A stretch of DNA of 64,000 nucleotides from Tricholoma matsutake (taxonomy: Eukaryota > Basidiomycota > Agaricomycetes > Agaricales > Tricholomataceae), in the NCBI GenBank assembly GCA_026075535.2, contig AP026540.1, forward strand, positions 558,001-622,000. Direction: 5' to 3'. Every line of letters starts with the position of its first letter. The first letter of the stretch is position 1. The notes under the pieces were generated by a model. It made no database searches. It worked only from the letters and a program-made list of their open reading frames with translations, and had not been told where the DNA came from. Positions 8,199 to 49,589 of the stretch are shown one piece after another. The translations under genes were made by a program, and so were the position numbers.

Positions 8199-8597
8199 CT
8201 GAGTGGTCATGAGACTTTGAGAACTGGGGAGGATAGGCTGGGTATCAGTGCAGCTATATGGTGAGGGGGGGAGATGATCATTTACCTGCATTCCTGGGCC
8301 TTCCACTTCTAAATGATGTATGAAGATAGGATATAATCAGTAATTTACACTGCCCCACATATTCCAAGCTAGTCCAAGCTAGTCTGCATGGAGTCTGACC
8401 ACCTGGTGACTCAAATGAAAATTCACACACTTTTCAATGTGGAGTCTGACCCAGTCCATGCAGAGTCTGTGTGGAGTCCAAGCTAGTCTGCCACCTGCAC
8501 TCCAACCAGACTGTATTTCAACCAAATGAGTCAATTAGTTATCAAGTTCAAAGGGACTTCAGACTTAGTGAATTTCACCAAGTGCCCACAAAATAAA

Positions 8598-8679
8598 TTG
8601 CAAGGATTGAACTTGAGACCTCAGAGATGTTCACATGACATACCAAACAAGTGTGCTCAACAGGTTGAGCCACAGGAGA
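8598..8679 (-). repeat. tRNA-like module, type a
   Basis: On the minus strand an A-box-like TGGCTCAACCTG (plus 8661-8672) is followed 50-60 bases later by a B box AGTTCAATCC (plus 8604-8613). The spacing fits a tRNA gene, but the acceptor stem is poor, so I regard it as a tRNA-derived promoter module rather than a working tRNA. Confidence 0.65.
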
Positions 8680-9278
8680 ATTATTAGGTGTCAATATAAG
8701 GTTTATTTATGACTCAAACTGCTCAATTTTTTTTATTCTTTGAGAAAGGCCTTGGTCAAACAATTAAGATCAAATTTTTCTAATTAACCACATCCCTTGC
8801 ATTCTATGTGAGGGTGTGGGTACAATATAATAATAAACAAACAAACCCTTGCACAAGATGTGAGAGGGGGGCTACTATTATATATACATAACAGACAAAA
8901 TCCCTCGCACTGAATGCGAGGGGGGGAGGTAACAACATTATCTCTATGAAATGTGGGGGGAGGGGGACCAGGTGTGTCATCCACACAATATCCACCCCAT
9001 GAGTAGCTGCTTGTGAGCATGGGATGGGTGGTATGTTCCTTCATTGTCATCCATCTCTCCCCACCTGTGCCATTGTTGTTCCCCCCTCATTGTTGTTCCC
9101 CCCTCCTCTTGTTGGTTCCTGTCCCCCCCTCTTGTTGTCATTATCCCCCCCACATCATTGTTGGGTCCCTTCCCTCTTGTCTTGTCCTCCCTCATCATCA
9201 TTGCTGTCCACCCTCTGTCTTTGTTGTCCCCTCCCTCTCATCATGTTGGTATGGACATTGTTGGCAGTATCATAGTTC

Positions 9279-9341
9279 CTAGAAATAAACAAAATACATT
9301 GGTCAGTTAATAAAAACAAGAAATGAGCAAAAACAACTTAC
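9279..9341 (-). other. Intron-like segment next to hairpin (element 1)
   Basis: On the minus strand a GTAAGT donor directly follows the hairpin at 9347-9381 and the segment ends TTTCTAG after 63 bases, with an AACTGAC branch-like motif. The same arrangement recurs in other copies of the family. Confidence 0.5.
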
Positions 9342-9854
9342 CTAGGTCCCAAACAATGCAATTTGCATTGTTTGGGCCCACATTGCATTGACCTGCTATG
9401 TTTGCAGCCCTGGCTGCACTTGTGGGGGAGGTAGTGGGCACAGAAGTGGTGGTGGCAGGTTCTGATGGAGTGGTGGTGGTGGTAGATATGGGAGGGAGCT
9501 AGGTTGTACCAGTTCCCACTCTGCAAGCAGTTGCTCACAGCAGTGGTTCTGGGCCCTCAGGTGGTGGCTGTGTCAGCCATTGTTGTGGTTTTGAGGCTGT
9601 GGCATAACATGAAAAATTAGTTAAAGAAAAAGAACATTAAAAAACACTTACTAGTGGCCCAAACAATGGCAAAGTCATTTGGGCCTATTTCCATTGTTGT
9701 TTTTGGAGTAGCTGGTAGGAGGGAGGAAGTGGTGTTGTTGCCAGTGGTGGTGGTAGAGGTGATGTGCTGGCATTGTTGATCATGGCTGTGTGATGACATG
9801 TTCCCAACATGATGGTCATATGGTTACATAATATATCATTTGCCTGTCTTTACA

Positions 9855-9934
9855 ATGGTTCTATGGCTTAGTGGTTAATTGTGGCTATTTATAACTGATG
9901 GTAAGGCTTAGGGTTCAATTCCCTTTGGCTACAA
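9855..9934 (+). repeat. tRNA-like module, type b
   Basis: A box TGGCTTAGTGG (9864-9874) and B box GGTTCAATTCC (9912-9922), both good matches to pol III internal promoter consensus, with tRNA-like spacing. It points toward the right end of element 1. Confidence 0.7.
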
Positions 9935-10250
9935 AGTTTCTCTGTGGTCAGCCCAGACTATAATTACATTCTGTGGACTCTGGTGGACTGATGGGGACTG
10001 ATACAGACACATGTCTGTCCTAGTCTGAGTAAATTGACATTGCTCAGACCAACTCTGTGTGCACTCTGAGTAAAAGTCCAGAAATAGCACAGACTCCACA
10101 AAAGTCCATGCAGACTCTCTAGGAGTCCAGATAACTGCTATATAGGACATTTGAGCCAAATGATTTGGTGCCAGTCTGAGCTAGTCTGTGCAGAGTCCAC
10201 CAAATTCTGCATGGACTGGCTCAGAACACATGGGGCACAGTAAAGACCTC

Positions 10251-11228
10251 AATATAATAGTCATGCCAAATGATATTAGAGGCCCCTTGAGCACTTTGTA
10301 GCAGTCAGAATAGGCAGAAAAGAGAATAAGGGGTCAGAAGGAGATAAGCTTACTCTGTAAGATCCATGGAACCAAAATGTTCACTTTCTTTGATATAGGG
10401 GTTCAATAATTGAATAGAATAAATTTTAGCATGTGTTATGGCATAGGTATAAGCTCCTTACTTACCAGGAGGGTCCCATCAGCAGATGTGTAAATGACTC
10501 AATATATAACACACCTTACCTATCATTCAAAAGTCTTTAGTACAGTCTATTACTACCAGGAAGTTGCATACCTATGCTCCTTATAGTCAATACTTCATCC
10601 CAGAAGGTAGTAGACACAAGCTGGATCAAGTGTCCAAAAATGGCAATAATTCAAGAATAGCTCAACAGCAACACAACATGCTGCTATTTGGAGAGCTGGA
10701 GTGGATAGAGGCAGGTCAACTCCATAGATTGCAAAAGAGCCAGAGGGAATCCAATGAGAAATAATGGCACAATGTTGAAGAGAGCACTGATGAACTATGT
10801 GGTGATCAGATATGTAATGATTGGTCATGTACATCATGAATGTGTCTGAAACAATGACCAATTAATGATCAATTACCAGGTAGTGTGCCTTTCATGGCAG
10901 AGCCCACTACTTTTTACTCATTGGGAAGCAACAGGTGGTGTTACTCATAATGTCAGTTTGGCTTATTTTGTGGTTGTTCAGCCTTTTGTTGGTTGTGTTT
11001 GGAGGCCTGAAACATTTTTTCTTTTTTCTTTTTTTTTGGGCTCATATCTTTTACTATTTCTGTGTCTTTTTATCTGCTTTTGCCTACCTATGCTTCTCTT
11101 TTTCACTCAGTTATATATTTTGCATTGATAAAATCTCAGTTTCAATAGTTGATTTTGTGGTGTTCTCCAGCTTTTCTTTGGTTATCTTTGTGGATCATTC
11201 TTGTGTCTTCATCATCATGAGGCACAAC
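10251..11228. other. No recognisable gene
   Basis: Ordinary composition with a T-rich part near 11000-11220. Several short frames are open but none resembles a known family. Confidence 0.4.
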
Positions 11229-11694: not shown

Positions 11695-12960
11695 AAACTG
11701 TAAGTCTGGTCCCTGCCCCTGTCATCCTCATCCCCTTTGCCTGTCGTGTCTTTGTCCCTGTCCCTGTCCCTGGGGGGCCTTGTGGTTTTACCCTGGAAGC
11801 ACCCATGATCCACCCTACAAGCAGTGGCTCATAGGGCTGGGGGCAGGTGCTTGGTCACTCCTTGGCCTTGGGGTGCTGGTGTGTAGTCACACACCCTGCT
11901 ATCCACCCTGTGAGCAGGGGCTTGCAGGGCTGGAGGAGGGTGCTGGGTTGTCCTTTTTGGGTTTTCAGCTGTGTGGCATTGTTGTGTGGCCATTGGTGGC
12001 CATAGGTGGCCATGGATGTGTTGTCTTGTTCTTATAACATAGTTCGACCTAAAAAAACAAAATGAAAATATTAGTTAGTTAAAAAAATACCAAAGAAAAG
12101 TAAAAAAAAATATTACTAAGGGTCGTTTGGGCCTGATGTGGCTCATTTACAGCCATTTGTGGCTGTTTGCGGCATTATCTGACATGGGAGTGGGCATTGG
12201 AGTGGGGCTGGTGGGTGTTGATGGAGTGGTAGTGGTGGTGATAAGAGGGAGAGGGAGGGAGATGTGTGTGATGGTTGATCCATTGATCAACACTGATTGT
12301 TGATGCATCTTGAGAGTCACATGAGACAATTAGACCATGTGCCTGCTGCATGTCTCATGTGGGAATAGTTACCACACCTGCTATAAGTCTTTGTGGTGTA
12401 GCAGTTTATTGTGGCTCACGTTCCCATGTTCCTGTTGTTAGCAATTTGTAAGAGTGCCTCTTACATCATCACAACATTATCACATGGAACTCAGTTATCA
12501 CATGCTATTCCATTAGTATATAGTCTATACTCGAGTACTTGTGTACTGTATCTTAGTTTCCTCCCCCGAGAAATACTAAGTTCCTTACATGTTCCTGTCC
12601 CTTTGAGTCTCAAGTGTCGGAAGTTCTGGCTTCCTTCCACATTTGGCTTGGGGTTCAAGTCCCCTCTGTGTCAACTTTTGCCACACTGTAAAATGGAACA
12701 CAGACAGTCCATTCAAGTCCATACAGACTTCAACTGAGTCATAGTCCACGCTGCAAGATTTGCTTGGACTAGAACACTCAGAATCCATGTGGATTCCAAG
12801 CAAATAGCATGGATTCCATACAGACTGACTAGGATTCTGGGTGGAATCTGACCTTATGTTGTGCTAGTAAAATCAATCATTTGGTAGGTCACTATTCCAT
12901 TGGACTGACTTGGGTTCCCCATGGAATCCACATGGAATCCATGGGGGACAGTAAAGACCT
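11695..12960 (+). mobile_element. Composite element 2 (right half)
   Basis: The right end reads ATGGGGGACAGTAAAGACCT at 12960. Palindromes lie at about 11812-11845 and 11901-11930 and a half hairpin (GGTCGTTTGGGCC) near 12121. The type-b tRNA-like module is split: A-box-like TGGTGTAGCAG near 12391 and B box GGTTCAAGTCC near 12652, with about 190 extra bases between. The left (type-a) end is missing. Confidence 0.6.
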
Positions 12961-13640: not shown

Positions 13641-13896
13641 TGCAGCTCCCACTACATAATTTATCTATGCAGTTGAGACACTGCTGCATCTTCTGAACAA
13701 TTCTGCTTCTCTTTTGTACCCCATTATTTAAGTTTAGTTAGTTTCTACTTGTATTCCTCAGTTCGTATATTGACATAGACTTGATAAAGACAATCAATCT
13801 TGTTCTCCTCCTACCTCTGTCCTTCTGAGAGTCTGAACTTCTTCCAACTCTACCTCTAGTACTCACCCTCAAGTTCTGGTTCCATCCAAACTTACA
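13641..13896. other. Decayed gypsy or spacer sequence
   Basis: Pyrimidine-rich, no readable domain. It may be more of the gypsy element in decayed form. Confidence 0.3.
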
Positions 13897-14300
13897 AGGT
13901 CTTTACTGTGCCCCATGTATTCCAAGCCAGTCCGTGTGGAATTTGGTGGACTCCGCATGGACTAGCTCGGACTCTGCATGGACTGGCATTCATTCATTTG
14001 GCTCAAATGTCCTGTATAGCAGTTGCTTGGACTCCGCATGGACTTTCGTGGAGTCTGAGCTGTTTTTGCACCTTTACTTGGAGTGCGCATGGACTTTGTC
14101 TGAGCAACATCAATTTACTCAGACTTGGACAGATACATGTCTGAGTTGTCCGAGTTGAGTCTGTGGATGCATAGCAGAGGCTATGGAAAAATTATGTAGT
14201 AAAGGGGAATCGAACTACAAGCCTTATCACCAAGCATAAATAGCAGCAATTAACCACTACACCACAGAGCCATTGTCAAACAAGCAAACAATTGCATTAT
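13897..14300 (-). mobile_element. Composite element 3 (type-b end only)
   Basis: Starts AGGTCTTTACTGTGCCCC, followed by subterminal repeats of GGACTCCGCATGGACT type and a type-b tRNA-like module on the minus strand (14200-14274). The body beyond about 14300 merges with the CxC5 gene copy K, so the other end is lost. Confidence 0.65.
14200..14274 (-). repeat. tRNA-like module, type b
   Basis: Minus-strand A box TGGTGTAGTGG (plus 14254-14264) and B box AGTTCGATTCC (plus 14205-14215), one of the best B boxes in the window. It points outward toward the element end at 13897. Confidence 0.7.
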
Positions 14301-14401
14301 GTCACCATAGAACTGTGAGAACGTATAGCCATGATCAACATCAACCTCAGCTGCAACCACATCGCCATGACATCGACCCAACCCCAATGCCTCAAGATCA
14401 A

Positions 14402-17400
14402 ATGATTAACATGTTCAATACTTGCTCGACCGTCCCCACCACCCATAGCAGCCACAAACGGGACAATCCGTGCAGCCGCAAACACACCACGTCATCGGCT
14501 GATGTGGGGGCTGCAAAAAAAAAAAAGATTGCCAGTAGTGATGATGAAACAGATGTGCCAAAGGGGAGGAAAGGGAAGAAGAAAGGGGAGGAGAAGAGGA
14601 AAAGCAGAGGAAAGGAGGAGAAGGAGAAGGGAGGACAGGGGAAGAGGGGTACAAAGGTGAGGTAAGCTGCCCGCTCCATCTCCAGCCTCTCCCCTTACCC
14701 TTTCCCCCCCTTTTTTCACAGGAAAACTTTGATGATGCAAGCACAGGGGGATGCGGCTGCCACTCTCCCATCTCATGTCACCATGTATGTTTTCTCTTTT
14801 TTTTTCATCTTTTTTTGTTGTTTTACTCACTTCTTTTCTATCCGTCTCATGCAACCAGGTATGTTTTATCTTTTTTTCTTCTTTTTTTTCTTGTTTTATT
14901 CATTTCTTTTCTATCTGTCTCGCGTCACTAGGTATGTTTCTCTTTTTTTTTCTTCTTTTTTTTTCTTGTTTTATTCACTTCTTTTCTATATTACTAGGAG
15001 TGCTGCTGTGCTAGTGGCAAGCAGCATCACTATAGCTCCCCCTGAGCATACCAAGGCGACATCCTCCACCCCCACAGCTCCAATCTCTCTCCTGAAGCCG
15101 ACCCATCTCCGCTGTGCCGACATGGCAATGGTGGCCTCAGCATCCAGCAAAAACACGGCCAGGAAATCCATGGAGGAGACTGACAGCTCCCAAAGCGACA
15201 GCGATGACAACTCCCCAAAGCGACAGTGATGACAGCTCCCAAAGTGACAGGGACAAGAGCAGCGAGGGCAACATGAAGAGAAACCAGGACCAGGACGACA
15301 GCCATAGCAGCAGCGATGACAGCACCTCGGGGACTGGCAACGGCGGGAGTGACGACAGCAAGGACGAGGACGAGGACAACGATAACAACGATGGTGAGAA
15401 CAGGGACGAGGAGAAGGATGGCAAGGACAAGGGCAACGATGGCAAGGGTGAGGACAACAACAACGAGGGTGAGGACAACAATGAGGGCGAGGGTGAGGGC
15501 ACAGGCAACAACAACGATGTTACCAGGGCCCCAAATGCTGCAACAGCAGCGACCTCTACAAACGAAGACACCAACAACCATGGCCCCACCTTCGCCACCG
15601 CCTCTACCACCATGGCAGCAACCTCTACCATCGCGGTGGTGGCCTCTACAAATAAGGACACTAACGATGGCAGCCCCACCCTCCCTGCCACGCCTACTGC
15701 CATTCCCACTACCCCCACCGTTAACGAGGGGATTGAACCTACCACTACTGATAACAAAACTGCCACCACCACCCTTCCAGGAAACCAAGGTGCACCAACT
15801 GCTGTGACTGCCCCTGATGCTCACACCGACATCGTCATGGCCAGTCCACCTGGCACCCCCTCACGCCATGAACTTCAGGGTGCCTCTCACACAACAGGGG
15901 GAATTCTATGTGGGCGTGCCCAAGGTAATGTGTACAACATTGCTGATTGTATCAAATATGAGGGGGATATTTCCCCAACTACAGGTGAATTCTTCTTTAT
16001 TAATATCATCATACCCAAGTATAATAACCTAGAATAATAGGGAAAGTTTTTGTGTTCTGGTCACATGGTAACCCTGATACTTCTGAGCCATACATGACCC
16101 TTAGCCATCATGTAACACCAACCTTGGGGCCAGTTTTGAAGAAACTTGGCATTCAATATTCTCCTGTTTCCAGTAAGTCATTAATTAAAATAAATATTTG
16201 GTGGATAAATTTATTTTGGGATTTTTAGAGAAAAATCAGCGGATTTTTGTCTATGAGGATGATTTTTGAGCTGTTAAAGGACAATACAACACAGCAGTGG
16301 CGGATAATGATAGTGCTGAGTGGAAAGTTATCAATAATCAATTTCATTTGAGGTTACTGATTGTGAGATTTTATTCTTGATTTGAAAATCTTCTTCTCAC
16401 CATTAAATTAGACTGACAATGAACTGATTTCTTCAGCATCTCAGGGTCCTTTGTCTGCATCAACCTCAGAACCCCCTCCATATGTTGGTCATATGGCCCC
16501 CACAGTCGACATGTTCAAGTTGCAGCTTATTCACATCCTTGATATTCCCTCCAACCTGATAGGTACCAGTGATGTGTCACTCAAGATTGCATATCAAAAG
16601 TACAAGGCATTTCTTCTTGCCAGTCATACTGTTAATGACATGGTGGCGAATGGGACTTGGGAAATCAAGTGACCAACGAAAACTGACCTCATTGAAATTT
16701 TGTCTCCAAATCATATTTCCATTCTCACTATCGTCGATATTTCACAAAGGTAGCTGCTTATCCACAGATGGTGGCATGGTTGGAGGGGGAGACTGATGAG
16801 GAAGACATTGGCATTTGGGGGTTCAAGAAGATTTCATATACCTTTACTGATTTGAATACTTGGCTGTTGAATGGTGGGCCCTTGGAGTTTGAGGATGAGG
16901 ATGAGGATGGGAAATTGGTGAAAAAGAAGAAAAAGGGGAAGGGAAAAGCAAAAGAGATGGAAAAAGAGAAAAGAAAGGAAAAGAGGAAGGAAAAGAAGAT
17001 GGAAAAGGAAAAGGAAATGGGAAAGGGGAAGGGGAAGGAAAGGGTGCATAAAAAAAAGAATACCAGCAAAAAGGCCCAGTAAGTAGGGATGATAAACTAA
17101 AATGATCAATAATTATATGATCTCTTTGCAGTACTTGGATAGTATCAACTTGGATTATAAGCCACATCCTGGCTCTGGTTTCCAAAATCCTTGTATTGGC
17201 CATAAATCTTGTACCCTGGCACATCTGGACTTGGGTGGTTTTGTCAGCATTTATTCCTATTGCCTCTGCAATGCCAGCAGGAGAGGATCCTTTCCCAAAT
17301 ATCACATTCAAAGTCTTCAGTCAATTTATCAGCCAACACTTCAGCTCTAAAACATCACTATCAGCAGTGCTTGTCCTATTGTTTTCATTGACTGAAAATC

Positions 17401-17850
17401 CTGAGTTGCTGAATCTCCATGCCCGGCAGCAATACATTCAATGTGAAGGAGAAAATCATGTCATGGCATCAGGTTGGATCAAGGGTCTTGCATGGGCAAT
17501 CAAAGAAAATATGGATAACAATCAGCAAAGGCCTTTGAAGATGAAGGAGGTTGACAAAAACATGGATGCTGAACAAGAAATCACTGCACTCAGCCTCAAG
17601 CTTGATGCAGCTGCAAAACTTTTGAATTTGCATCCATACAATGCACATGGACATCTGCGAAAGAAACTACAACCCATATCCCATAAATTGATCCAGCCAG
17701 TACATGTTCTTTGTCCCAACTCAATGGAATGTGAAACAGCAAATTGCAATTCAAGGGCACTACACCAGGCCATCCGAACATGGGATATTCCTTGAGTCAC
17801 ACTGATCAAGAATTCAGTAATACATGAAAATGTTTTTGTTTTGACTGGTG
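14402..17850 (+). pseudogene. CxC5 cysteine-cluster gene, copy K (3'-truncated)
   Basis: A multi-exon gene paralogous to copy J at 34.8-39.7 kb. Matching parts in order: a Lys/Glu-rich first exon (to about 14656), a short exon (14722-14784), a tripled intron (14785-14997), a long Ser/Asp/Asn/Gly-rich exon (14998 to about 16040), then TLGPVLKKL, a YEDDF block, MVAWLEGE with a Lys/Glu-rich tail (16768-17083), and FSLTENPELLNLHARQQ leading to VHVLCPNSMECETANC. The last is the start of the CxC5 cysteine cluster, a probable zinc-binding module linked to KDZ transposases. Intron positions agree with copy J where both can be read (for example 16184-16230 and 16332-16410). A stop at about 17793 and replacement by LINE sequence at 17850 end it before the catalytic-like half. 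Confidence 0.7.
14785..14997 (+). repeat. Intron triplicated in tandem
   Basis: Three consecutive units, each starting GTATGT and ending AG: 14785-14858, 14859-14931 and 14932-14997. Each has T-rich runs and the phrase TTATTCACTTCTTTTCTAT. Each boundary is both a 3' and a 5' splice site, so one intron or three abutting ones could be removed. Confidence 0.8.
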
Positions 17851-19116
17851 TTTTGACTGGGGACAAAGCCAGAAATGCCCACCTCTTCACCAGAGCAAAC
17901 CTAGAACTAATGCAACCGCTACTAAATATGCTAAGCAGACATAACATGAAGATGGCCCTCCCACCATTCATACCGATGCTACACTCACACAGCATGGGAA
18001 ATCATATGAGGGTCAACAACATATTCTGCAGCGAAGCACTCATAGACACCGTAGTCAAATGCAACACGGACAATGCCTCACAACCAATAAAAATGGATCA
18101 CTACCCAATCGTGATGCAACTGAACATTCATACACCAAAGATAGCACAAAAACCGAGACACAACTTCAGGCTCGCAGACTGGCCAGAACTGGTAACAACT
18201 CTGAAAACTAACCTCGACAACTTACCAACCCAACAGAAATCACTAACATTCGGGATTTCGACAACAAACTGGAAGCTCTAAACACAGTGATCCAAGATGC
18301 CATCAACAAACACGTACAGCTAACGAAACCAAGCCCATACTCCAAAAGATGGTGGTCGACGGAACTAGCGAAGGAGAAAAAGAAAAAGATGCAGCTAGGG
18401 GGAAGATCCAAATACCACCGCGGAAGCCCAGACCACCCAATTCATGAAGAATATTGACAGCAATGCAATGCATACTCAGAGAAGATACAAAATGCCAAAG
18501 TGGATCACTGGATAGAATGGCTGGAAGGCTTAGACGGAACGAGCGTATGGCAAGTGAGTAAGGTAGTGACGTCACCACCCATGGATGCGGGAAGAGTAAG
18601 GATACTGACGCTACAGCTGAAGGACCCAGTCACAAAAAGAGTACGCAGATAAGAGTCCAACAACATGGGAAAAAGAAAACTGTTTTATGAAACATTCTTC
18701 CCACCAGCTAACCCATGGCTAACACCACCACCAGAGAACTACAGATACCCGCCTCCACGGTGGACATTCCAGAACATAACGAACAACCAGATACACCAGG
18801 CCATAAAGAAGTTGAAGCCATTCAAAGCCAGTCAGAGCAGGACCATCCTGAACTTGGTACTCATACATGCCAGAGAAGCTATCGTTCCTCACCTAGGACC
18901 ACTGTACTGCACCACCAACACACTGAACTACTACCCAAAGGTACGGTCGATCACAGACACTCTGATACTAAAGAAACCTGGGAAGCCTGACTACACCACA
19001 CCCACAGCGTGGCGACCCATTGTCCTATCAGATGGCTTAGCACGCCTTCTGAACAGCTGCCAGACAGAAGAAATTGTACATATGTGCGAGAAATTCAACA
19101 TTTTACCAGATTACAG
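17850..19116 (+). pseudogene. LINE retrotransposon fragment: endonuclease end and RT start
   Basis: Reading across frames gives the end of an APE-type endonuclease (FCSEALIDTVVKC, then MDHYPIVMQL, matching the conserved DH-P box), a linker with YSKRWWSTELA, and the start of a non-LTR reverse transcriptase (TFQNITNNQIHQAIKKLKP, LILKKPGKPDYTTP, TAWRPIVLSDGLARLLN). Several frameshifts and stops are present. Such LINEs are common in Agaricomycetes and insert by target-primed reverse transcription. The left boundary falls inside the CxC5 domain of copy K; the right is cut by composite element 4 within the reverse transcriptase. Confidence 0.8.
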
Positions 19117-19434
19117 AGGTCTTTACACTCCCCCCCCGTATTCCTATAGGAATCCGATGATTCCGATGATTCCGATTGGACTCCAATCGGAATCCAACCA
19201 TATTCCAATGTCATTTTCACCAGCCAAATTGACATGAAATGGCACATTTAGTCCTAGTTCAGTCCGATGTAGTCCGATCAGAGTCCGATCAGACTATCAG
19301 AATTTCCTAGGAATTTCCGATCATATAAATCACATAGGACTAGTCCAAAGTTATGCTAAGACATCAGACAACATAGGATTCCAATAAATGAAAGCAGCCT
19401 TGCTTAGTAATATAGTATGAAAAATTAAACACAC

Positions 19435-19512
19435 AGACGAGAATTGAACACCTGACTACAGAAGATTATGTAAGCATAAACCGACACCAATACCATTAGG
19501 CTAAACAGTCAT
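19435..19512 (-). repeat. tRNA-like module, type b
   Basis: Minus-strand A box TAGCCTAATGG (plus 19493-19503) and B box TGTTCAATTCT (plus 19440-19450), facing the left end of element 4. Confidence 0.6.
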
Positions 19513-19786
19513 TACAGGTAAGTGATCATACTACACTACATACCTTCCCGTGGGTGTGATGACAAAGCACATAGCCGTGTCATCACACCTGCCAGCTCAT
19601 CAACTCCCACCACCACCACCAACGATGACAAGCATGGCACCTCCATCCCCCCACCTCAACCACCTCAACCCAGCAACTCCCACCACTCCCACTTCACCCC
19701 CATCTCTAGACGAGCCCCCAAGACCAGAAACGACTGGTTTCGATGCCGAACGATGCCCAAATGACGCAATCGTCGTTTGGGCTGTA

Positions 19787-19852
19787 GTAAGTTTTTTTTT
19801 TCACTCATTTTTTACTTTTGTAAACTAACTAATTCATTTGTTTTGTTTCTAG
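19787..19852 (+). other. Intron-like segment next to hairpin (element 4)
   Basis: GTAAGT donor 10 bases after the hairpin at 19746-19776, an AACTAACTAATT branch-like motif, and a TTTCTAG acceptor; 66 bases long. Confidence 0.55.
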
Positions 19853-20923
19853 GTTCTAATCTACATGAGTAATGATGGACTGACACGAGCCAAACCCACA
19901 CCCAACGATGCCCCTGGCAACTGCCCTCCTCCCCATCAAAATGGGATGTGAGGGTATCAATCATGGTCAGGAGCATGGGGAGCAACACCAGGAGACCCCA
20001 GAAGGGGAATACCTGCCCAGTAAGCACCACCTGACCCCTCCTCTCGAGCCATGTCACTGATGAACTGACAATGCACCCACCCCACACCTATGAGCTGCTG
20101 CTCGTAGGGTGGATCATGAGTGCATGGACCCCCCACGACACCAATGACATCCAGCACCCCCCATCACCGCTGTGAGCAACTGCTCGCGGGGTGTATATGG
20201 GGTGCGAGAACATGGGAACAGCATGGAGGGACGACAATGGCACCAAACAACACGCCTATGAGCAGCTGCCCATAGGGTGGTTCGTGGGTGCAGACGATGA
20301 GGGGGATGAATGACAAGGGTGATGAAATGACAAGGGGAAAGGGAAACGACAAGCAGAAGGGGAGACGATGGCAACACCCGCCCCACGCATGCCTACGAGC
20401 ATCTGCTCATAGGGTGTTTAAGGGGAGGGGGAGGGAGGGAGGGGACGATGGACAAACACCCCCACCAACATACAATGCACCACCCACCACCAGCCTCGCA
20501 AGCAACTGCTCGTGGGGTGGACGGTGGGTGGAATGACAAGGGAGGGGAGACAAGGGAGGGGAGGGAAGCCACGGGGGAGGCGAGGTGAGGGAGGCGAGAC
20601 ACGACGGAGATGAGAGGGAGGGGAAACGATGGGACAGGGCTGACAAGACAGCCAACGCGACGCACCACCACCCCCTCCCCCCCGCAAAACAGGGGGGTGG
20701 GTTTTTTTTTGTAGAATTTAAAATAGTATAATTAAATAGTATAATCAATTCTCCCCCTCGCGTTTGCATGGGGTTTTTTTTTAAAATCTATATTAGTTAT
20801 CTACTCCCTCGCGAAGATGCGAGGGCTCAACAATTTTTTTTCGAGCTCTTGTGAGAGAGGTTAAAAATAAGTGAACTAATCCTAAGTGCTTTAAATGGAC
20901 TTTATATTACATATTTATTAATG

Positions 20924-21009
20924 CTCCTGTGGCTCAACTGGTTTAGCACTTGTTTGGTAAGTGATGTCACTTATATCCCAAGGTCTAGAGTTCAATTCCT
21001 GCTCTGCCC
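20924..21009 (+). repeat. tRNA-like module, type a
   Basis: A box TGGCTCAACTGG (20930-20941) and B box AGTTCAATTCC (20989-20999). CACTT and AAGTG around a seven-base GTTTGGT loop look like an anticodon arm. It faces the right end of element 4. Confidence 0.7.
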
Positions 21010-34815: not shown

Positions 34816-37800
34816 TTAGTCATAGGTATCAATGCCAATATCAGGATCACTACTCTGCTGAACATTTTTTCCTTTGCTGTTCTGTTTCTCAATCACCATT
34901 CTGGTGTGGTAAAATAGCATAGTATGAAGAAACCAGTCAAAATTACCTGGAACCATTCTTTTCAGTATATTTTCAAATCCTCCCAGCCATGCATTGAGCT
35001 GTTCACATGCCTGAGAAGTTGACTATCAGAAAAAAAAATTAACAACAATCAAATTAAAGTTTACATCACCTGTGTATTAAAGGCACGTTTGTAATAGTTA
35101 TTCCCATCATTGTCTTTCCCCACAACAACTAAGTTGGGAGCCGATCCATCCAATGGTGCTGGATTGCACCATTTTCTGCACATGTAATCGGTGGTCTGAT
35201 GATTGATATAGTGGTATGAGTCCACTACAAACTGGGTTGTCTTTTCCCAGATATGATTCCAACTTCCATTTGCGATTGCTGTACAAAGCACTAGACATGC
35301 TTTGTCAATGCAAATATAATCTGGCTTTGAATCTTCTGTAGGAAATACTGATTCCAAAAATGCTAGAATATTTGTAGGTGATTCTGACTTGGCAAATTTG
35401 GCCCATGCAACTACAACACCACAAGGGGCACAGATTGTTTCAACACAGTAAAACCAGGAAGGATAAAAGTAGTTCTTTCTTTCCAGTTCCTCTGCTGGTT
35501 CATCATGTGGGTGTGTAGATTGACCAGCCTGCAACCATGGCTGGGTATTTGGTTGCTTAAAAATATGACGAGCTCCAGGCAGTGTCTGGCATTTATGTTG
35601 TTGGATATGTTTTTCCATAGATCCTGGTGGCTTTGACAAGCTTTGGTCCTAGTAACTTTGGTGTTTGTACAATCCCAAACATGACACTTTGTAGCAAACT
35701 CTTCTTGATGTACTGCACAAAAAACAGCTCCCCATGAATTTTCAAGTTCTCTTTCACAATTGTCATAAGCACAATACTATATATCCAAGTCAGTTATAAT
35801 GTTGCTCAGTATTGAAAAAACATACAGAGGGGCCAACAACCATACCATCAAGTACCATCATTCTGACATCAGCATTGCCATTTGTAGCAGCCTGAGTAGA
35901 GGCTTGTGTTGCTCCAGATGGTTGTATTGGCTGTGAGTCTAACAGCTCCTGGATTTCTCCAATACCACCTTCAAGTTGTGGAACCAAGGCATTCTCATCT
36001 GCTCCAACTGTGGCTGCAGCATCATACAAAGAGAAAGTATCTGCTCAGGCTTTGTATTTCTGAGTGCATTCAGAGCAGTGGTGGTTTTCTGCAGCTCTGA
36101 TTATTCCTTTCTCACCCAGAATTTCAAATGCTTGCTTTGTAACTTGATGCAGAGCAAGACCATCTGCCAGCTCCAGATCTATACCAGAAGAACTTGCAAG
36201 TGATCGAATGGATTCCTGAACAAAACTATGCCAGACTTGATCACATGATACTTTGACTGAGCTTTGTTTTCCAATGGCATCATTCCAAAACTCTGTATAT
36301 GCAGAAAATGATGCATGAAAATGATAGACACCCATCACAACTGCATTTGCAAACAGCCGGTCTGCCCAGATATTCTGGCCAATTTTGAGATACTTGGCAG
36401 AATTTAGATACACTCTAGCATGTTTTGTTTGCTTGTTTTCAATAGGTGCATGTTCATGATTGGCATAATACATGGTATCACAGTGAGTGTATTGGCCAGT
36501 AAGGACTGGACACTCTTCATAGGTAGAAAATTCTTTGATGAGTGTGACCAGTGGGATATCACATTGCCTTGTAACTTGTTGTAATGATTGAGGGTCACAA
36601 GAGTCAGTTGTACATTGAAAGGTGTCAGGACAAATCAAATGGATACCTTCAATTTTCTTGTAAGATACTGGCTTCAACTTGTGTTTGATTTTGCCATATT
36701 TATTACTAGGATGCAGTCCCAGTGATTTGGACAAAGCATCGAGCTGTTTGCCAAGAGCAGTAATCTGGAAATCCTCAGAGAGTGTAGTTGACTCTTTGAG
36801 AGTAATTTTGTGCCCTCAATGCATAATTTGTCTTGAATTGATCTTGATAGGCATTTCATCCAGCCTGAAACAGTAACACTATTTTCACCACGAAATTGGC
36901 GTTTTTGTTGCCTTGCATGCAAGGCAAGCAACTCTGGATTTTCAGTTAGACTAAAAACCATGCAGAGAACAGAGGCCAAAGAGATTGTGGAGTCAAAGTT
37001 TTCCTTGATGAATTGGCTAAATTCAGCAAAGGAAGTTTCTGGAAAAGTTATCATGTCTGGTAATGCAACAGCCTGTGGCAAAAAAGCCTGTGCTGCAAAA
37101 ATTCAGAACAAAATGGACAATGCTTGAAGTAAATTGAGAATTGCAAAAATTGAGGCCTGAATTGAACTAACCAAACTTGAATATTGGCCTTCAATTGGTA
37201 CACTACATACAAATTGCTCACTTTTGTGATTTCTTGGGTTCCTTCTCCTTCTCCTTCTCCTTTGCTTTTCCCTTGCCTTTGTGTGAATTTCCAGATCCCT
37301 TCTCCTTCTCCTTTCCCTTTTTATTCTTCTTTTTTGTGTCCAACTCCTCTGAATCTGACTTTATCCCTTCACCCCCTCTCCTCAACAATTCATGAAGATC
37401 CACAAATCTATACTGCCCCTTCTCAACTTTCCAGACCTCAAGATCAGATGGTGCATCTTCATTATCCTCCAGCCAAGCAACCATGTGGGAATGTTCTGCA
37501 ACATGTGGACAATATTTGCGAATATAATTGTACCAGAATGTCTTGGACTGCATTGTTTCAATGACCTGCTCATGAGTTGGCTTTCATTCAAAAGGTAATT
37601 CACCATCCTTCCATTTTCTGTCCAAAACTGGAATTGCTGTGAGGAAGGCCTTGTAATTTGAATAAGAATGCCGAAGAGATCTTTGTTTACAGTCTGCAAG
37701 ATGGATTGGAATGCCAAGATGAGCCATAAGCTCAGCTGAATAGGATGTCAAGTCAACAGATGCAGAATGACCTGCTGAAACTGATGGGCCTCGACTTGGG

Positions 37801-39693
37801 CCTCAACTCGCAGAACCTGAATGGCAATTTAAAATTGTTGAAGCCAGAGATTCAGGTGTCTCAAGTTCATCCTTTTCCTATCCAAAATATATTTAAAATA
37901 TTGTTTGAAATAAAGTCATGAGACTTACCAGCCACATTGGTAAAACATACTCATTATTGATTTTCATCCACATAATTTCCTCATCATCTCCAACTGCAGT
38001 ATCATATTTGCCTTTAACAGTCCAGTCACTATCCTCATAGGTATGAATTCTGATGTTGGGTTCTATTGCCAGGGTTAGAATATTATTCAAGTTCAAAATT
38101 ATCAACTTACTGTATATAGGCAAATATTTGTGGGACAACTTAGTAAGAATGGGACCAAGAGTTTGAGACATATCAGCCTTAAGTATATGTTTGGGCTTGA
38201 CATTAACAGGATCCAGGTTGGCCGAATCAGAAATTGACTCATAGAGGTAGACTTTTCCAGGAACAGAAATCATAAGATCCATATCCATCTCAAGATCAGG
38301 AGCATCTGCGAGGCTGAATGTGTTGCCAAATGCCCTACCATGCATTATTCCTCCAGAGGTTCAGGATGCTCCTTGAAGATTCTGGGAGGGGCTAGTGGGT
38401 GGGCTCATCATACAAACATCTGTTCAGCATTATATCTTGAGTTCAATCAAATTATGGGCAAAGACTGAGATACCTTCAGGATTCCCATCAGGGTTGATGA
38501 CAGCACCATCATTGGGCTGGGCAGTGTGGTCATTCAGGTCAGTGTGGTCGCATTTGTGTTTGTCATTCCTGGTGTTGTTGCTCCCATTGCATTTGTTGTC
38601 CCCCTCATGTTGGTTGCCATCCCCCTGGCCTTCGCTTTCGTTCCCCTCATTCTCCTCGCATTGGTTGTTGTCCCCCTCACATTTGTCATTGTCCCCCTCA
38701 CATTTGTTGATGTTGTCCCCCTCGCATTTGTCATTGTCCTGGCCTTCACAGCTGTTCCCCTTGGCAGCTGTTCCCCTTGCCTTTGCTGTCATTCCCCTCG
38801 CATTTGTTGTCCCCCTTGCCTTTGCTGCTGTTCCCCTTGGATTATTGTCCTCCCTGCATTTGACACCCCCCTCCCACTGGCCATCGTCATTCTCCCCCTG
38901 CTGGCCATTGTTTTCTTCATCGTCATTATCCTCGTTGTCATTTTCTTCATTGTTGTTTTCTTTGTTTTCTTCCTTGTCATTTTCTTCACTGTTGTTTTCT
39001 TTGCCATCATTTTCTTTGCCATCATTTTCTTTGCCATCCTTTGGTTTGTTGTGGTCCTCTTTGCTGTTGTTGCCATCCTTGTCTTTGCTGTCCCCTTCTG
39101 TGTCCTCTTCATTGTCATTTTCATCACCACTCCCATCATTGGAGCTGCTGTCATTGGAATCCATGCTGGAGTCAGATTTGGAGTCCTTGGGGAGCTTGGA
39201 ACGGCAGCAGCGGCCCTTCAGCTGCATGGCAGGGGTAGTACAGGCACAAGGGGGTGGAGCAATGGTGACACCGCTCTGCTTGAGTGCCAGCTCAGACCTT
39301 GCAAAAAAATGGGAAAGATTGTTGTCAGTATCAGTAGAAACAGTAGACCAACACTTACTTTGTCAATTTTGAAGGTTCCATGGTAGCGGCATCCTCTCGA
39401 GCCTTAGCGTTCGAGGTTTTTCTGCACGAGCGAAGAAATAAGTAAATATGGCCAGGGAAGGAAAATACTCACCTCCCAGAGCCCCCTTTGCCCCCTTTCC
39501 TCTTGGTCTGTGCCTCCCCTTGATCCTCCTCAGCTCCTTTCTGACCCCCTTTTCATTGCTTCTTAGCCTTGTGGTCATCATTGACCTGTGATGTGGAACA
39601 TTTGTGCCCAGCCGATGCTGTTGATTGAGGGGGCAATTGGGTTTGTTTGGTCTTGCTACGTGTCTTGGTGCCAGATGAGCAGGTGGTGGGCAT
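34816..39693 (-). pseudogene. CxC5/CxC6 cysteine-cluster gene of the KDZ type, copy J
   Basis: Minus-strand gene from the ATG at 39693 to the TAA at 34816, with at least seven introns of 50-80 bp. Order: Lys/Gly-rich start, short exon, a long Asn/Asp/Glu/Gly-repeat exon (39290-38477), QGAS...GRAFGNTFSLAD, KADMSQTLGPILTKL, YEDSDWTVKGKYDTAVGDDEE, MVAWLEDNED plus Lys/Glu tail, FSLTENPELLALHARQQ, the CxC5 cluster (HLICPDTFQCTTDSC, CPVLTGQYTHC, CSECTQKY) and a CxC6-like cluster (CAYDNCERELE, then KCHVWDC). The C-terminal half reads YFYPSWFYCVETICAPCG, YICIDKACLVL, VVDSYHYINHQTTDYMC and ACEQLNAWLGGFENILKRM, which looks like a DDE/RNase H-fold transposase core. Four stops (two near 39555 and 38372, one near 37770, one near 36047) and two frameshifts (near 36815 and 35620) disable it, yet most blocks are intact, so decay is recent. 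Confidence 0.75.
35011..35069 (-). other. Last intron of copy J
   Basis: GTGATG donor and TTCTCAG acceptor, 59 bases. Splicing joins FNTQ to ACEQLNAW in phase 0 and removes the apparent early stop. Confidence 0.75.
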
Positions 39694-40110: not shown

Positions 40111-41746
40111 TCATTAACAAAAATTCATCTAATTAATTATATACTTAACTACAATTATCAAACCACCCTATGAGCAGGCGCTTGTAGGCATGGGGTGGAT
40201 CGTAGGTGGGCCCAGAGAAATAAATAAAAAAGAAAGAAAAAATAGAAATGGTCCAGGAGACACTTGTCTCCTGGGCCAGAGAATAGTAAAGAAATTAATG
40301 AATGAAAAATACCCAGGAGACAAGTGTCTCCTGGGCCTGTCCCGTCATCGTCCCCTTCCCTTTCCCTGGTCATGGTTAATCCACCCTGCCTGTCATCCTG
40401 GTCCTGGTCCTCATTGTCCTGGTTTGGCTATCATTGTCCCCTATTGTCGTCCCCTATTCATTGTTGTCACCAGCCCCATTCCACCCATGATCCACCCTAC
40501 GAGCAGTTACTCATGGGACTGGACACAGGTGGTGTGTCATTTGGTGGGTGGGGCTGGGGCCTGCGGGTTCTATTTGCTGTGCTGGCACCCACGATCTACC
40601 CTACGAGCAGGGGCTCGCAGGCATGGGGGCGGGTGCTCGGTCGGTATTGTGGCATCGTTTAGATGCTAAAAAACAAAGCAATATATTTTGTTAGTTTATC
40701 GACGCCATCATCATTTGGGCCCGTGTTGCATCCGAACTCAGCTGTTGGCAGCCATGGCGGTCATCGTCGTGTTGATGTCGTGGTCGGGTGCTGGGTTGTC
40801 CATCGTGATTGGGGTGTGCTGCGGCCAGTTCAGGGTGTTGGTGGTCTCTCATTGTCATAACCTAGTTAGAGCCTAAAGAAAGAGACAAAACAATAATTAG
40901 TCAAAAGAAAAAGAAAAAAAGAACATAAAAAAACATTACCTGGGCCCAAAACAACATCTGTCATTGTTTGGGCCCGAGGTGGTGCGAGTGTGGCCATTAG
41001 CAGGGTTAGATGAGGGGGTATGGGAACGTGGTGGTGGTGGGTGTTGACGGAGGGGAGGTGGTGGAAGGAAGGGAGGTGGCAGAAGGAAGGGAGGTGGCAG
41101 AAGGAAGGGAGGTGGCAGAAGGAAGTGGCCATGGCATTGTCGAGGAGTGGTGGTGATGAGCTGGCAGATGCAGCTGGGTGCTTTGTCATACACAGCCACT
41201 TGATGTGGTACTTAGATCAACTTATGTGGTATTTTATAAGGACACTGTGGTATAATGGTATATTGCACCTGTTTAATTTAACCCTGGGTCCTGGGTTCAA
41301 TCCTCATAGGTTTTATTTACTTTTTAATAGTAAGGACTCCTGGTTAAATACCAGTGGAGTCCTGGTGGATTCCCAGTAGAGTCCTGGTAGAGTCCTGGTA
41401 GAGTCCTGGTAGAGTCCTGGTAGAGTCCTGGTAGAGTCCTGGTGGATTCCTGGTAGAGTCCTGGTGGATTCCTGGTGGATTCCTGGTACCAGAGTCCTGG
41501 GGAATTCCAGGAATTCCTCCTGGAAGAGTGTAATTTACCAGGAATCAACCAGGAATCCCCCCAGAATGGGAAGAGTCAGGAATATATACTTGAGTGACAA
41601 ATGGCTGGAACATTGGTTCCCAATAATCCTCCAGGATTCCTCCAGGAATATGTGGGGGAGGACAAAGACCTCACGGATTCCAGAAATTCCAGAAATTCTG
41701 GCTGGACAAACCGGAATCCAACGGTAATAGGTGGGGGAGTGTAAAG
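40111..41746 (+). mobile_element. Composite element 6 (type-a end lost)
   Basis: Right side complete: tandem AGAGTCCTGGT repeats (about 41355-41475), then GGAATATGTGGGGGAGGACAAAGACCT ending near 41677 and a further end-like GGTGGGGGAGTGTAAAG at 41746. A type-b tRNA-like module faces right (41238-41312). Hairpins lie at 40249-40278, 40310-40340 and 40938-40975, palindromes at about 40162-40198, 40492-40525 and 40578-40620. A GGGAGGTGGCAGAAGGAA minisatellite lies at 41050-41115. The left end is missing. Confidence 0.65.
41238..41312 (+). repeat. tRNA-like module, type b
   Basis: A box TGGTATAATGG (41247-41257) and B box GGTTCAATCCT (41294-41304). Confidence 0.7.
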
Positions 41747-47066: not shown

Positions 47067-47303
47067 CACTGATAGGTCCACCTTGTCATTCAAGTGCAAA
47101 AAACACATCTATGATTGTTGTTGAAGCTCTATGAGTCTCTACAGACCTCTACAAAGCTCTATGAACCCATACCAACCCCTCCGAAGCCCTACAAACCTCT
47201 ACAAACCTCTACAAAGTCACGAGAATGCTTCGAAATTCTTCGCAACACCTTGAAATTCTTTGTATGCCTTCGGCCGCCATAATACAATTCCCCCAACCTT
47301 CAG
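47067..47303 (+). repeat. 3'-end copy of the 33.6-34.5 kb unknown gene
   Basis: Encodes the closing phrase STLSFKCKKHIYDCC and a stop, then repeats of ACAAAGCTCTATGAACCC type, as at 34440-34550. Only the tail is present, joined directly to the CxC2 fragment. Confidence 0.65.
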
Positions 47304-47652
47304 AGCTCTTTACACTGCCCCACGTATTCCTGGAGGAATCCTGGTTATCCCTGCCACAGCCATTGTTCACCAAATGTTGCATTCCTGGCTGTTTTTTCTC
47401 CAGTGGGATTCCTGGTTCAGTCCTGGTATATTCCTGGTAAATCAGGCTCTTCCTGGTACTATTCCAGGAATTCCCCAGGACTTGGACTCTCAGGAATCTG
47501 GGGGGACTGACCAGGAATCCTGTAGGACTCTATAAGAGTAACCAGGACACTGTAGGACTCACCAAGACTCACCAGGACTCACCAGGAATCCAGTAGGATT
47601 GAACCAGGAGTCCTTACTACTACTACTACTACTAAGTAATAAAATAAATGAC

Positions 47653-47731
47653 ATGAGCTGGAATTGAACTCTAGGCATGAGACAACAACATTTTAGCATA
47701 GCCAATATAACCACTACACCACATAGACTTA
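47653..47731 (-). repeat. tRNA-like module, type b
   Basis: Minus-strand A box TGGTGTAGTGG (plus 47711-47721) and B box AGTTCAATTCC (plus 47660-47670). Confidence 0.7.
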
Positions 47732-47993
47732 TGAGGTATGTCCACTTACTGCTCTAGGTACCATTGGGGCGGCTGTGCATGACAAAGCACACAGCCGCAT
47801 ATCAACATTGCCAGCTCATCATCCACCATCATCACCACTCTTGACGATGACACCACCTCCCTTCCACTGCCTCCCCTCCATCAACACCTGTTGCCACTGC
47901 TCCTATGGCCACCACCACCTTGTCTAATGCCACCAACGGCTGCATTTGAACCACCTCAGGCCCAAATGACAACAGATGTCATTTGGGGCCCAG

Positions 47994-48046
47994 GTAATGT
48001 TTTTTACTTTTTTTTTATTGAACTAATATTTTCTTTCCTTCTTTAG
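47994..48046 (+). other. Intron-like segment next to hairpin (element 7, first)
   Basis: GTAATG donor after CCCAG at the hairpin foot, a GAACTAATATT branch region and a TTCTTTAG acceptor; 53 bases. Confidence 0.5.
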
Positions 48047-48229
48047 GTTCTAACTATATCATGACAACAAGACAACACCAAACAACAAATGAAGAACAAC
48101 AAATGAAGAACAACGAGCAAGCGACAGACAACAGACAACAAACGACAAACAAAGAAATGGAGAATGACGACACAGAGAGGGAAGGCTGGCAAAGGGCCCA
48201 GACGATGTACATCGTCATTTGGGCCCCAG

Positions 48230-48295
48230 GTAAGTTTTTTTTTGTTGGTTTCATTCTTTTTTGATTAATATTAGTTTTCTTTTGAATTTTTATAG
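48230..48295 (+). other. Intron-like segment next to hairpin (element 7, second)
   Basis: GTAAGT donor after CCCCAG, a GATTAATATTAG region and a TTTTTATAG acceptor; 66 bases. Element 5 has the same segment inverted at 28195-28128. Confidence 0.6.
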
Positions 48296-49265
48296 TTTCT
48301 CATTGTATGATGCGACCCACCACTGCCACCGCACTCTCCACCACTGTGAGCAGCTGCTCACAGGGTGGAAACAGAAGTGATGATGAGGACCACAGAGACG
48401 GAGATGAGGAGCCGCAAACAACGAGAGCAGCGGGGTGGCAAGACAAGGATGGGAGGACAACAGACAACCATGAAAACAATGGGACAGGGAGGACAATGGA
48501 CAACAAGCACAACCCAGCACCCAGCACCACCGCTGCAAGCAACTGCTCGCAGGGTGGAAGGAGGGGTGCGAGGATGGAGATGACCACACAACAACAACAG
48601 GACACCAGCACCAGGGAATGAAACACAGCCAGGAGAGCAACAGTGAAGCCAGGATGACAAACAGGTGCGAGGACGGAGACGACCACACAATGACAACAGG
48701 ACACCAGCACCAGGGAATGCAACAGCGGGAGACAGCCAGGATGGCAACAATGACCAGGAAGGGCACAACCAGGAGCAGCATGGAAACAATGCCCCCAGGA
48801 AGGGCATGACCAGGAGCAGCACGGAAACAACGCCCAGGACGGCAACGACAAGGACAGCAACGACGAAGGCCTGGCACCCAGTATGATGGGGACATCACAA
48901 CAGGCATGACTCAGCAGGACGCCCCCGCATTTTGTGTGGGGTGGTTTTTTTCATTTTTTATTTATGGTAATACCCTCCCCCTCGCCTGTGTTTTACATGG
49001 TTGAGGGGTTTTTCTTTCTTTTTCTTTATAATTGTAGTGCTCCCCTTGTGTAGATTAGTTTTATATGTATATATTTGTAGGACTCCCCCTCGCACCTTGT
49101 GTGGGGGAGGTTTTTTTTAAATGTAATTAATGGTGTATCCCTTGCGTCCAACGCGAGGGATGTAGTTAATAAATTTTATTTGATCTTAATTGTGAGCTTC
49201 AAGAGAGAAATACCTAAGTTTGAGTTTGAGGGTATAAATACACTTTTATATTGCAGCTAATAATT

Positions 49266-49351
49266 CTCCTGTGGCTCAACTGGTTAAGCACTTGTTTGGT
49301 TTGTCATGTGATTCTTGATCATGAGTTCTAGAGTTCAATCCCTGCTCTGAA
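49266..49351 (+). repeat. tRNA-like module, type a
   Basis: A box TGGCTCAACTGG (49272-49283) and B box AGTTCAATCCC (49332-49342), facing the right end of element 7. Confidence 0.7.
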
Positions 49352-49589
49352 CAAGTTTATTTTGTAGGTACTTTGTGAAATTCATGAAGTCTGAAGCACT
49401 TGAAACTGGTAAGATATCTCAAATTGACTTTCCATTATGGTATTACTTTAGGGTACTGAGTCTCACTGTATTCCTGGTGAGTCCCACTGTATTCCTGGTG
49501 AGTCCTACTGTATTCCTGGAGGATTCCTGGTCTTCCTGGTAGGACTACCAGGATTCCTCCAGGACTATGTGGGGCAGTGTAAAGTTCAG

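Follow-up and report, generated by a model that had tools for sequence, protein, structure and literature searches.

Introduction

Inverted ends that each hold an outward-facing, tRNA-like promoter module raise the question of what kind of mobile element carries them and what the modules are for. A non-autonomous DNA transposon moves without transcription of its own, which leaves a Pol III promoter at its ends without an evident purpose; one that is kept there suggests a function in chromatin, in recognition of the ends or in silencing. Here we address this question in a window of 64,000 nucleotides from Tricholoma matsutake (contig AP026540.1), the whole stretch of DNA that was analysed. According to the sections of the published T. 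matsutake annotation used here (PMC10211490), 40.9 Mb of repeats are unclassified and 13 SINE copies are annotated.

Elements and their boundaries

The window contains 11 matches to the core of the terminal inverted repeats (TIRs) at up to two mismatches, against 0.66 expected. Genome-wide, the exact core occurs in 254 + 250 copies (reversed control, 0) and the generic core has 3,880 matches (control, 38). All four complete copies in the window are TIR transposons of the non-autonomous kind; they are flanked by 8-bp target site duplications (TSDs), carry subfamily-specific subterminal repeats and belong to several subfamilies, not one. A CTTTACxxTxCCCC-like core comes after unequal termini: GAGCT or GAGGT at the A end, and CTGAA or CAGTA at most B ends.

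Boundaries were refined from the TSDs. Element 1 (8338..10250, minus strand) has GTCTGA-type subterminal repeats, its B end on the left and its A end on the right, and a TSD agreeing at 7/8 bases (GATATAAT/AATATAAT). Element 2 (19116..21292, plus strand; A end left, B end right) carries GGACTCCTATCGGA-type repeats and the core CTTTRCACTCCCCC; its right boundary is approximate, with a best TSD fit of 6/8. The CCTGG-type repeats are shared by element 3 (25806..28939, minus strand), which has an exact CTTTACACTGCCCC, a B end on the left (CTGAA), an A end on the right (GAGCT) and a best TSD fit of 7/8 in the AGCTTTTG/AGTTTTTG region, and by element 4 (47303..49589, plus strand; A end left, B end right), with a best fit of 7/8 (AACCTTCA/GACCTTCA). 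When the best of 36 offsets was taken for true and swapped pairs alike, 18/24 end pairs agreed at 7/8 bases or better, compared with 8/552 swapped flank pairs. Eight further copies, read at a fixed offset, gave a perfect 8-bp TSD in six cases, 7/8 in one and 3/8 in one.

A sequence-only reading of the window had proposed complete copies built on one plan of inverted ends, subterminal repeats and an outward A/B-box module per end, and this plan was confirmed in all four. It had also described them as holding no ORF: the longest ATG ORFs are 88, 120, 179 and 205 aa, and Pfam gave no match at E ≤ 0.01 in the last two, searched at lengths of 179 and 204 aa. The hairpins and palindromes described inside the copies were recovered as nine inverted pairs across the four; elements 1, 3 and 4 share a GGCCCAAA..TTTGGGCC-like palindrome, which accounts for three of these pairs. 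In elements 1–4, perfect arms of at least 10 bases number 1, 2, 0 and 2, against Markov means of 0.00–0.05; palindromes lie at 9345..9379 in element 1 (GGTCCCAAACAATGCAA/TTGCATTGTTTGGGCCC) and at 47953..47995 in element 4 (around GGCCCAAATGACA/TGTCATTTGGGGCC).

Partial copies, likewise proposed before, are marked by TIR-like ends at 12943(−), 13901(+), 41733(−) and 60235(+), and by eye at ~41672. The cores at 12943..12956 (minus strand, behind GAGGT) and 60235..60248 (plus strand, behind CAGTA) have three mismatches each; that at 41733..41746 (minus strand) reads CTTTACACTCCCCC. A core match with two mismatches also occurs at 55544(+), but its inner sequence is unlike these ends.

Besides the non-autonomous copies, the window contains transposase-bearing relatives. 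One is truncated (13896..17858, plus strand) and extends from an A end (AAGGTCTTTACTGTGCCCC) to ~17.86 kb, where similarity stops; its pieces are 34–48% identical to the ORFs of L009, a 6.8-kb copy. Another is a degenerate remnant of a CxC5-type transposase (34849..37844, minus strand), with pieces 60–85% identical to the L009 ORFs. An outward A-type module at 41248..41304 (plus strand) faces the A-type end at ~41672 and appears to be nested, since another end lies at 41733–41746; it can be linked to the transposase remnant only with reservation.

Transposase and relationship to KDZ elements

L009 has the same ends as the non-autonomous copies and encodes a CxC5 protein (PF18718, 1.7e-26). PF18718 was also found in an ORF of locus L008, where it lies outside the end. 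At 12 further transposase loci, such an end (up to two mismatches) follows the gene in 11/12, and 7/8 upstream stretches contain an A end. Homologs of the CxC5 protein include some named 'CxC5/CxC6 like cysteine cluster associated with KDZ transposases'. CxC6 (PF18721) was absent from the L009 ORFs tested and present in homologs P0005, P0111 and P0097; some homologs have both PF18718 and PF18721.

The KDZ domain PF18758 gave no match at E ≤ 10 in the L009 ORFs 4240–5796 and 5955–6623 or in homologs P0005, P0111, P0097 and P0002. It is present elsewhere in the genome (165 matches scored). A set of 30 PF18758 loci (108,432 bases) yielded a single strict hit, a B-type module as in non-autonomous copies, so within flanks of ~1.5 kb KDZ loci do not generally carry the module. 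A first AlphaFold model had a pLDDT of 56 and an uninformative fold search; a second gave weak RNase H-like matches, among which no transposase stood out.

The suggestion that no named superfamily fits is not supported: the same ends bound copies that code for a CxC5 protein with KDZ-associated homologs. Judged by sequence, the elements are best read as a KDZ-associated, PF18758-negative transposon group of T. matsutake that appears to have retained a terminal equipment of Pol III type-2 promoters.

Outward A/B-box modules

An outward A/B-box module is present at 8/8 ends of the four complete copies. The B-end modules lie at 8603..8672 (−) in element 1, 20930..20999 (+) in element 2, 26052..26122 (−) in element 3 and 49272..49342 (+) in element 4; the A-end modules lie at 9864..9922 (+), 19440..19503 (−), 28462..28519 (+) and 47660..47721 (−), respectively. 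TTTT follows the B box after 8–20 nt at 7/8 of these ends, the exception being the A end of element 1, which has none close behind; in the A-end module of element 3 a T run lies 11 nt behind the B box, and in that of the truncated relative (14206..14264, minus strand) 14 nt behind it. The modules point outward from 160–610 bp inside the ends, and TTTT close behind the B box likewise falls 160–610 bases short of the element end. A 121-bp stretch at the B end of element 4 (49255–49375) is identical in 40/41 of the genome-wide matches listed, itself included.

A looser A/B-box scan is insufficient alone, as it gave 0–10 matches in six Markov sequences as long as the window; an earlier count of 66 outward and two inward modules was dropped in favour of a strict A + B + TTTT scan, because B-box-like words in subterminal repeats had been counted twice. 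In 32 paired copies, chosen by their TIR core and not independent within a subfamily, the strict scan was positive outward at 52/64 ends and inward at 0/64, at both ends of 21 copies and at one end of ten. Element interiors gave two matches in 37,014 bases. In a separate strict set, 42/46 non-autonomous ends were positive, with a Markov expectation of 0.14. These scans and the excess of cores over expectation rule out a chance origin.

In transposase-bearing copies, 6/9 A ends were positive (the negative ones include the end at ~41672, counted here despite its likely nesting), and 2/13 B ends, five of whose stretches are just 388–535 bases long. Copies without modules, which the earlier reading had named as evidence against its proposal, are seen in part only: 11/13 B ends of this one class lack a module. 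In L094 and L095 a module below the strict rule is visible by eye.

The A-box 20-mer of the B end has 1,614 copies in the genome (control, 0). Of 18 sites fetched without an exact core, 17 lie at a variant end, so the module belongs to the element, and the eighteenth is cut inside subterminal repeats; this rules out a free SINE that disperses independently. The proposal that outward promoter modules are integral to both ends is thereby upheld. Their description as tRNA-like holds for the promoter-like A and B boxes but not for the tRNA itself: ARAGORN and Rfam (RF00005) found no tRNA or cloverleaf in the modules examined (window; L009, L084, L089 and L090; 11 loci), so the modules are described as 'Pol III promoter-like' and no longer as a 'tRNA gene'.

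Origin and role of the modules

One explanation is that an ancestral end acquired, on one or a few occasions, a tRNA-derived promoter that was then inherited and duplicated with that end, functionless, its outward symmetry arising from inverted duplication. The loss of a recognizable tRNA would agree with this, as would locus L014, a copy with two B ends, and the transposase-bearing copies with module-less B ends. Nine modules were set against 20 host tRNAs. Resemblance to a tRNA beyond the boxes was seen in two A-type modules (0/200 box-preserving shuffles were as good) and in one B-type module (p 0.005); the other six gave p 0.05–0.29. Against such a relic, the boxes are alike between types while their surroundings are near background. 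Across 10 A-end modules (45 pairs), box identity is 0.80/0.81 (shuffled, 0.58/0.54), a comparison partly built in, as the modules were found by their boxes; upstream, middle and downstream identities are 0.60/0.63/0.61 (shuffled, 0.57/0.59/0.59). T runs also fall within a narrow interval downstream of the B box (background there, 7.1%). We consider a functionless relic rather unlikely.

If Pol III transcripts ran outward through the subterminal repeats and TIR, their RNA could matter for movement or silencing. The strictly outward orientation fits this idea, and 39/44 scored non-autonomous modules lack a run of T5 or longer before the end, so that a weak T4 could be read through. However, in the strict set the B box is followed by TTTT after 8–20 nt, and the transposase-bearing class has T5–T7 within 40 nt at its seven scored A ends, the probably nested end at ~41672 included. 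We regard this version as improbable. No T5 was observed in B ends, against 8.6 expected; this depletion was set aside as evidence, as the copies are related.

TFIIIC bound at both ends might instead serve transposition as a host cofactor, helping to pair the ends or to place the element within the nucleus. The copies positive at both ends (21/32) or one (ten), next to presumed transposase sites, would suit this role; the module-less B ends of transposase-bearing copies do not, and we regard it as quite improbable.

We lean towards an overall explanation in which the copies are non-autonomous derivatives moved by a CxC5/CxC6-type transposase, with end modules acting as chromatin barriers. Its first part, derivation from TIR DNA transposons with such a transposase, is very probable; barrier function is suggested tentatively, by analogy. 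The transposase would mobilize the copies in trans, and the subterminal repeats would differ between subfamilies because they are its putative binding sites. With less weight, the modules may recruit TFIIIC and Pol III and form small barriers that keep the ends accessible in a repeat-rich genome, their orientation keeping Pol III out of the element's interior. The promoters would probably be kept for chromatin reasons. The module-less B ends and the unmatched PF18758 in the L009 ORFs count against this explanation. Natural copies with and without modules make the role directly testable.

Comparison with known systems

The elements are a known type of transposon whose built-in outward Pol III-like end feature looks new. 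Literature searches, covering publications outside subscription journals, did not find outward modules arranged at TIR ends, and one scan of viral contigs confirmed no relatives in other species. As in KDZ transposons, CxC5 occurs in the element and CxC6 in homologs; unlike in these, PF18758 was not matched in the L009 ORFs tested. In the sections of PMC12730594 considered here, an 8-bp TSD is stated for Zisupton and a Dileera family, as in the T. matsutake elements, whereas Kyakuja has a 7-bp TSD, CA..TG termini and no TIRs, unlike their 8-bp TSD and TIR core; 'tRNA', 'subterminal' and 'Tricholoma' are absent from its main text.

The barrier formed by the cen1 tDNA-Ala of S. pombe requires TFIIIC and Pol III and acts independently of orientation, as described in the portions of PMC2040200 drawn on here. 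The likeness is a Pol III/TFIIIC unit at a boundary, for transposon ends a proposal only; a barrier role does not itself require strict outward orientation, given that of S. pombe.

tRNA-derived SINEs likewise have A and B boxes without a recognizable tRNA fold but disperse independently, whereas the T. matsutake module sits within element ends. TRIMp3 elements (Cassandra, Helenus, Ajax) are LTR retrotransposons with PBS and PPT, and Helenus has a 5-bp TSD in fungi, in contrast to inverted ends, an 8-bp TSD and a DNA transposase here; the main text of the TRIMp3 paper compared does not contain 'DNA transposon'. The broadest reading of our sequences, to which we give somewhat less than an even chance, is a major fungal DNA transposon group with selected, integral outward Pol III type-2 end promoters, kept across deeply diverged subfamilies. 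Rather than driving expression of the transposase, these promoters would serve element survival, through ends that stay open or insulated or through RNAs derived from the ends. If true, DNA transposons would have in these elements their own equivalent of TRIMp3 and SINEs.

In the Tricholoma matsutake genome (G000; 161,040,721 bases scanned in 13 contigs), the core CTTTACACTGCCCC is present in 504 exact copies (reversed control: 0) and the generic core MTTTRCWSTSCCCC in 3,880 (control: 38). The termini were unequal in 20 fetched pairs (+/- neighbours picked among 100 of the 504 exact core places) and in the four complete window copies (8338-10250, 19116-about 21292, 25806-28939 and 47303-49589), mostly with GAGCT (A end) or CTGAA (B end) preceding the core. 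The 8-mer flanks agreed at 7 or 8 positions in 18 of these 24 copies vs 8 of 552 swapped combinations, using the best of 36 offsets for real and swapped sets alike, and, with the offset fixed at its most frequent value of 5 bases beyond each core, were perfect in 11 of 24. Among eight further copies (core pairs picked among 100 of the 3,880 generic core places), the 8-bp target duplication (TSD) was perfect in six, matched at 7 of 8 bases in one, and at 3 of 8 in the last, where a one-base shift fits as judged by eye. The unequal core-bearing ends and the matching flanking 8-mers thus define TIR elements with 8-bp TSDs. They have at least four types of subterminal repeats (CCTGG, GGACTCCTATCGGA, GGAATAACTGGACTCC and GTCTGA); hairpins and palindromes, noted in the sequence-only reading, are present inside the window copies as short ones, one kind being common to three copies. 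One locus, L014 (G000:C1:5002974-5006719), is an element with two B ends; the first 47 bases of this locus are the same as those of its reverse complement and the match fails further in, which looks like a head-to-head duplication of one end together with its flank. At window 41630-41746, two different element ends with the same facing lie about 75 bases apart, which suggests a nested insertion very near an end.

The same reading had placed an outward module at both ends, and a loose scan indeed found an outward A/B box pair at 8/8 ends of the four window copies, a result that is indecisive alone because six window-length Markov sequences yielded 0-10 matches. A strict scan is decisive; it required A and B boxes with ≤3 mismatches and a TTTT run following the B box at 8-20 nt. 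In the 32 paired copies (20 + 4 + 8) it was positive outward at 52 of 64 ends and inward at 0 of 64, with two matches, both strands counted, in 37,014 bases of interior; both ends were positive in 21 copies, one end in 10 and none in 1. By end class (0.17 matches expected in total by simulation), outward matches were found at 23/24 B ends and 19/22 A ends of non-autonomous copies, and at 6/9 A ends and 2/13 B ends of transposase-bearing copies (five of these last stretches being <700 bases, 388-535). Inward matches across the four classes numbered 0/68. The two positive transposase-bearing B ends (L089, L090) carry a unit that differs from the common B type. These loci, of another subfamily, have the outward unit TGGCTCAGGTGGTTAGAGCAC...GGTTCAAGTCC with zero box mismatches, flanked on both sides by subterminal repeats in L090. 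Tandem outward modules at one end were also observed: two different A-type modules in the transposase-bearing copy L009 (600-920), similar tandems at C2:12518765-12518988 and C2:13092125-13092339, and a B-type pair at C2:5968100-5968384, whose members match the 121-bp query at 100% and 85%.

Averaged over the 45 pairs among ten A-end modules that represent different types, identity was 0.80 in the A box (shuffled 0.58) and 0.81 in the B box (0.54), vs 0.60 upstream (0.57), 0.63 between (0.59) and 0.61 downstream of the boxes (0.59); this conservation is partly built in because the modules were found via their boxes. That box pairs exist at all at ends selected through transposase or TIR does not follow from this procedure, and the background of TTTT at the module position is 7.1%. 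The description of the modules as tRNA-like holds for the A and B boxes, but none of those checked is recognised as a tRNA; resemblance to host tRNAs beyond the boxes was found in 3/9 module sequences (p ≤ 0.005), relative to 20 host tRNAs mostly of one Ile family.

The 20-mer TGGCTCAACTGGTTRAGCAC (B-end A box) has 1,614 genomic copies at ≤1 mismatch (control: 0), and a 121-bp stretch of the B module has at least 41 matches, 40 of them identical (40 of 1,753 candidates scored). Where exact cores were listed (part of C1-C2), one lies ahead of 9/11 identical matches. The remaining two were fetched together with the first 16 20-mer places that lack a nearby exact core; in 17 of these 18, a variant core (1-4 mismatches) lies 245-466 bases away, the two with four mismatches having the same end kind as L066 and L075, and in the eighteenth (L074) the sequence breaks off inside subterminal repeats. 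A free SINE was rejected since nearly all the B-module places examined lie near exact or variant cores. The A-end pattern TGGTSYARTGGTTA...GTTCRANYC has 406 matches (control: 0); in C1:1-3.71 Mb, the part with listed generic cores (n = 13), comparison by eye placed such a core 149-364 bases ahead on the side that the module faces in nine, some of them copies already counted, and none in four.

The sequence-only reading had found no named superfamily to fit, a view superseded by L009, a 6.8-kb copy with the same two ends that encodes a CxC5 ORF (PF18718, E 1.7e-26). Homologs of this ORF include proteins of 680-770 aa with CxC5 and CxC6 together. PF18758 (KDZ domain) had no match in the L009 ORFs and homologs searched, and the group is therefore filed as KDZ-associated CxC5/CxC6 transposons, not KDZ. 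For the C-terminal ORF of L009 (223 aa), the protein set contains 1,124 homologs, several of the best 120 being named from Agaricomycetes; for a related element, the top protein homolog shows 98% identity to a protein of Tricholoma matsutake. The predicted structure of the transposase core gave weak RNase H-like matches. The C-terminal ORF also has at least 155 genomic matches (150/318 candidates scored). Downstream extension of 12 such loci reached an end of the shared kind (≤2 mismatches) in 11, 374-1517 bases into the fetched stretch, and upstream extension of eight reached an A end in seven. No A end was found in the fetched upstream stretch of L092; in L097 it lies at the stretch edge and, as in L009, two A-type modules face outward, some 320 and 480 bases further in. 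Degenerate transposase-bearing relatives occupy 13.9-17.86 kb and 34.85-37.84 kb of the window, the former ending near 17.86 kb in unrelated sequence (17859-19115) that hosts the insertion of the element at 19116. The ORF at 18653-19114, where a LINE was suspected by eye, gave no match in a Pfam search. At 4156-4842, an ORF matching RVT_2 (PF07727, 4.7e-15) looks like a Copia-type retrotransposon remnant.

The data establish that the elements are TIR transposons with TSDs, which transposase type goes with them, and that their promoter-like modules face outward and have a T run. Short copies would be moved in trans by the transposase, with the subterminal repeats as putative binding sites. With less weight, and by analogy, TFIIIC/Pol III binding at the modules might create barrier or open-chromatin ends. 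The precedent tDNA barrier depends on TFIIIC and Pol III and is orientation-independent (PMC2040200), so strict outward orientation would need a second reason, possibly that Pol III is kept out of the element or, alternatively, that an ancestral end was simply duplicated in inverted form. Less probably, RNA of non-autonomous copies would run outward through the TIR, as first proposed: 39/44 scored modules of this class lack a T5+ run ahead of the end, but in the transposase-bearing class T5-T7 lies near the B box in the seven scored A ends.

A tRNA-bearing LTR element was also observed. L060 (G000:C1:9170600-9171700) is TRIM-like, with two 224-bp LTRs (TGTT..AACA; 5 differences), a 70-bp internal part and GAATC at both flanks, and ARAGORN recognised tRNA-Ile(TAT) in each LTR; L061 looks like a solo LTR. 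These tRNAs are among the 20 tRNA matches listed, all of equal score (56.3 bits). L060 agrees with the Helenus type as described in PMC10886601, a paper whose main text does not name Tricholoma matsutake. The matsutake 'Small RNA' repeat class (2,342 copies, 1.94 Mb, ~827 bases each; PMC10211490 Table 2) has copies far longer than tRNA genes; the transposons described here, or the TRIM that bears a tRNA, may be among its members. The main text of that assembly paper mentions neither KDZ nor tRNA, and the end-module arrangement was not found in the parts consulted of the papers by Kojima on KDZ-type elements of fungi (PMC12730594) and on TRIMs with Pol III promoters (PMC10886601), nor among the titles and abstract openings searched. 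As far as these sources go, the transposon type is known and the outward Pol III-like modules at its ends look new.
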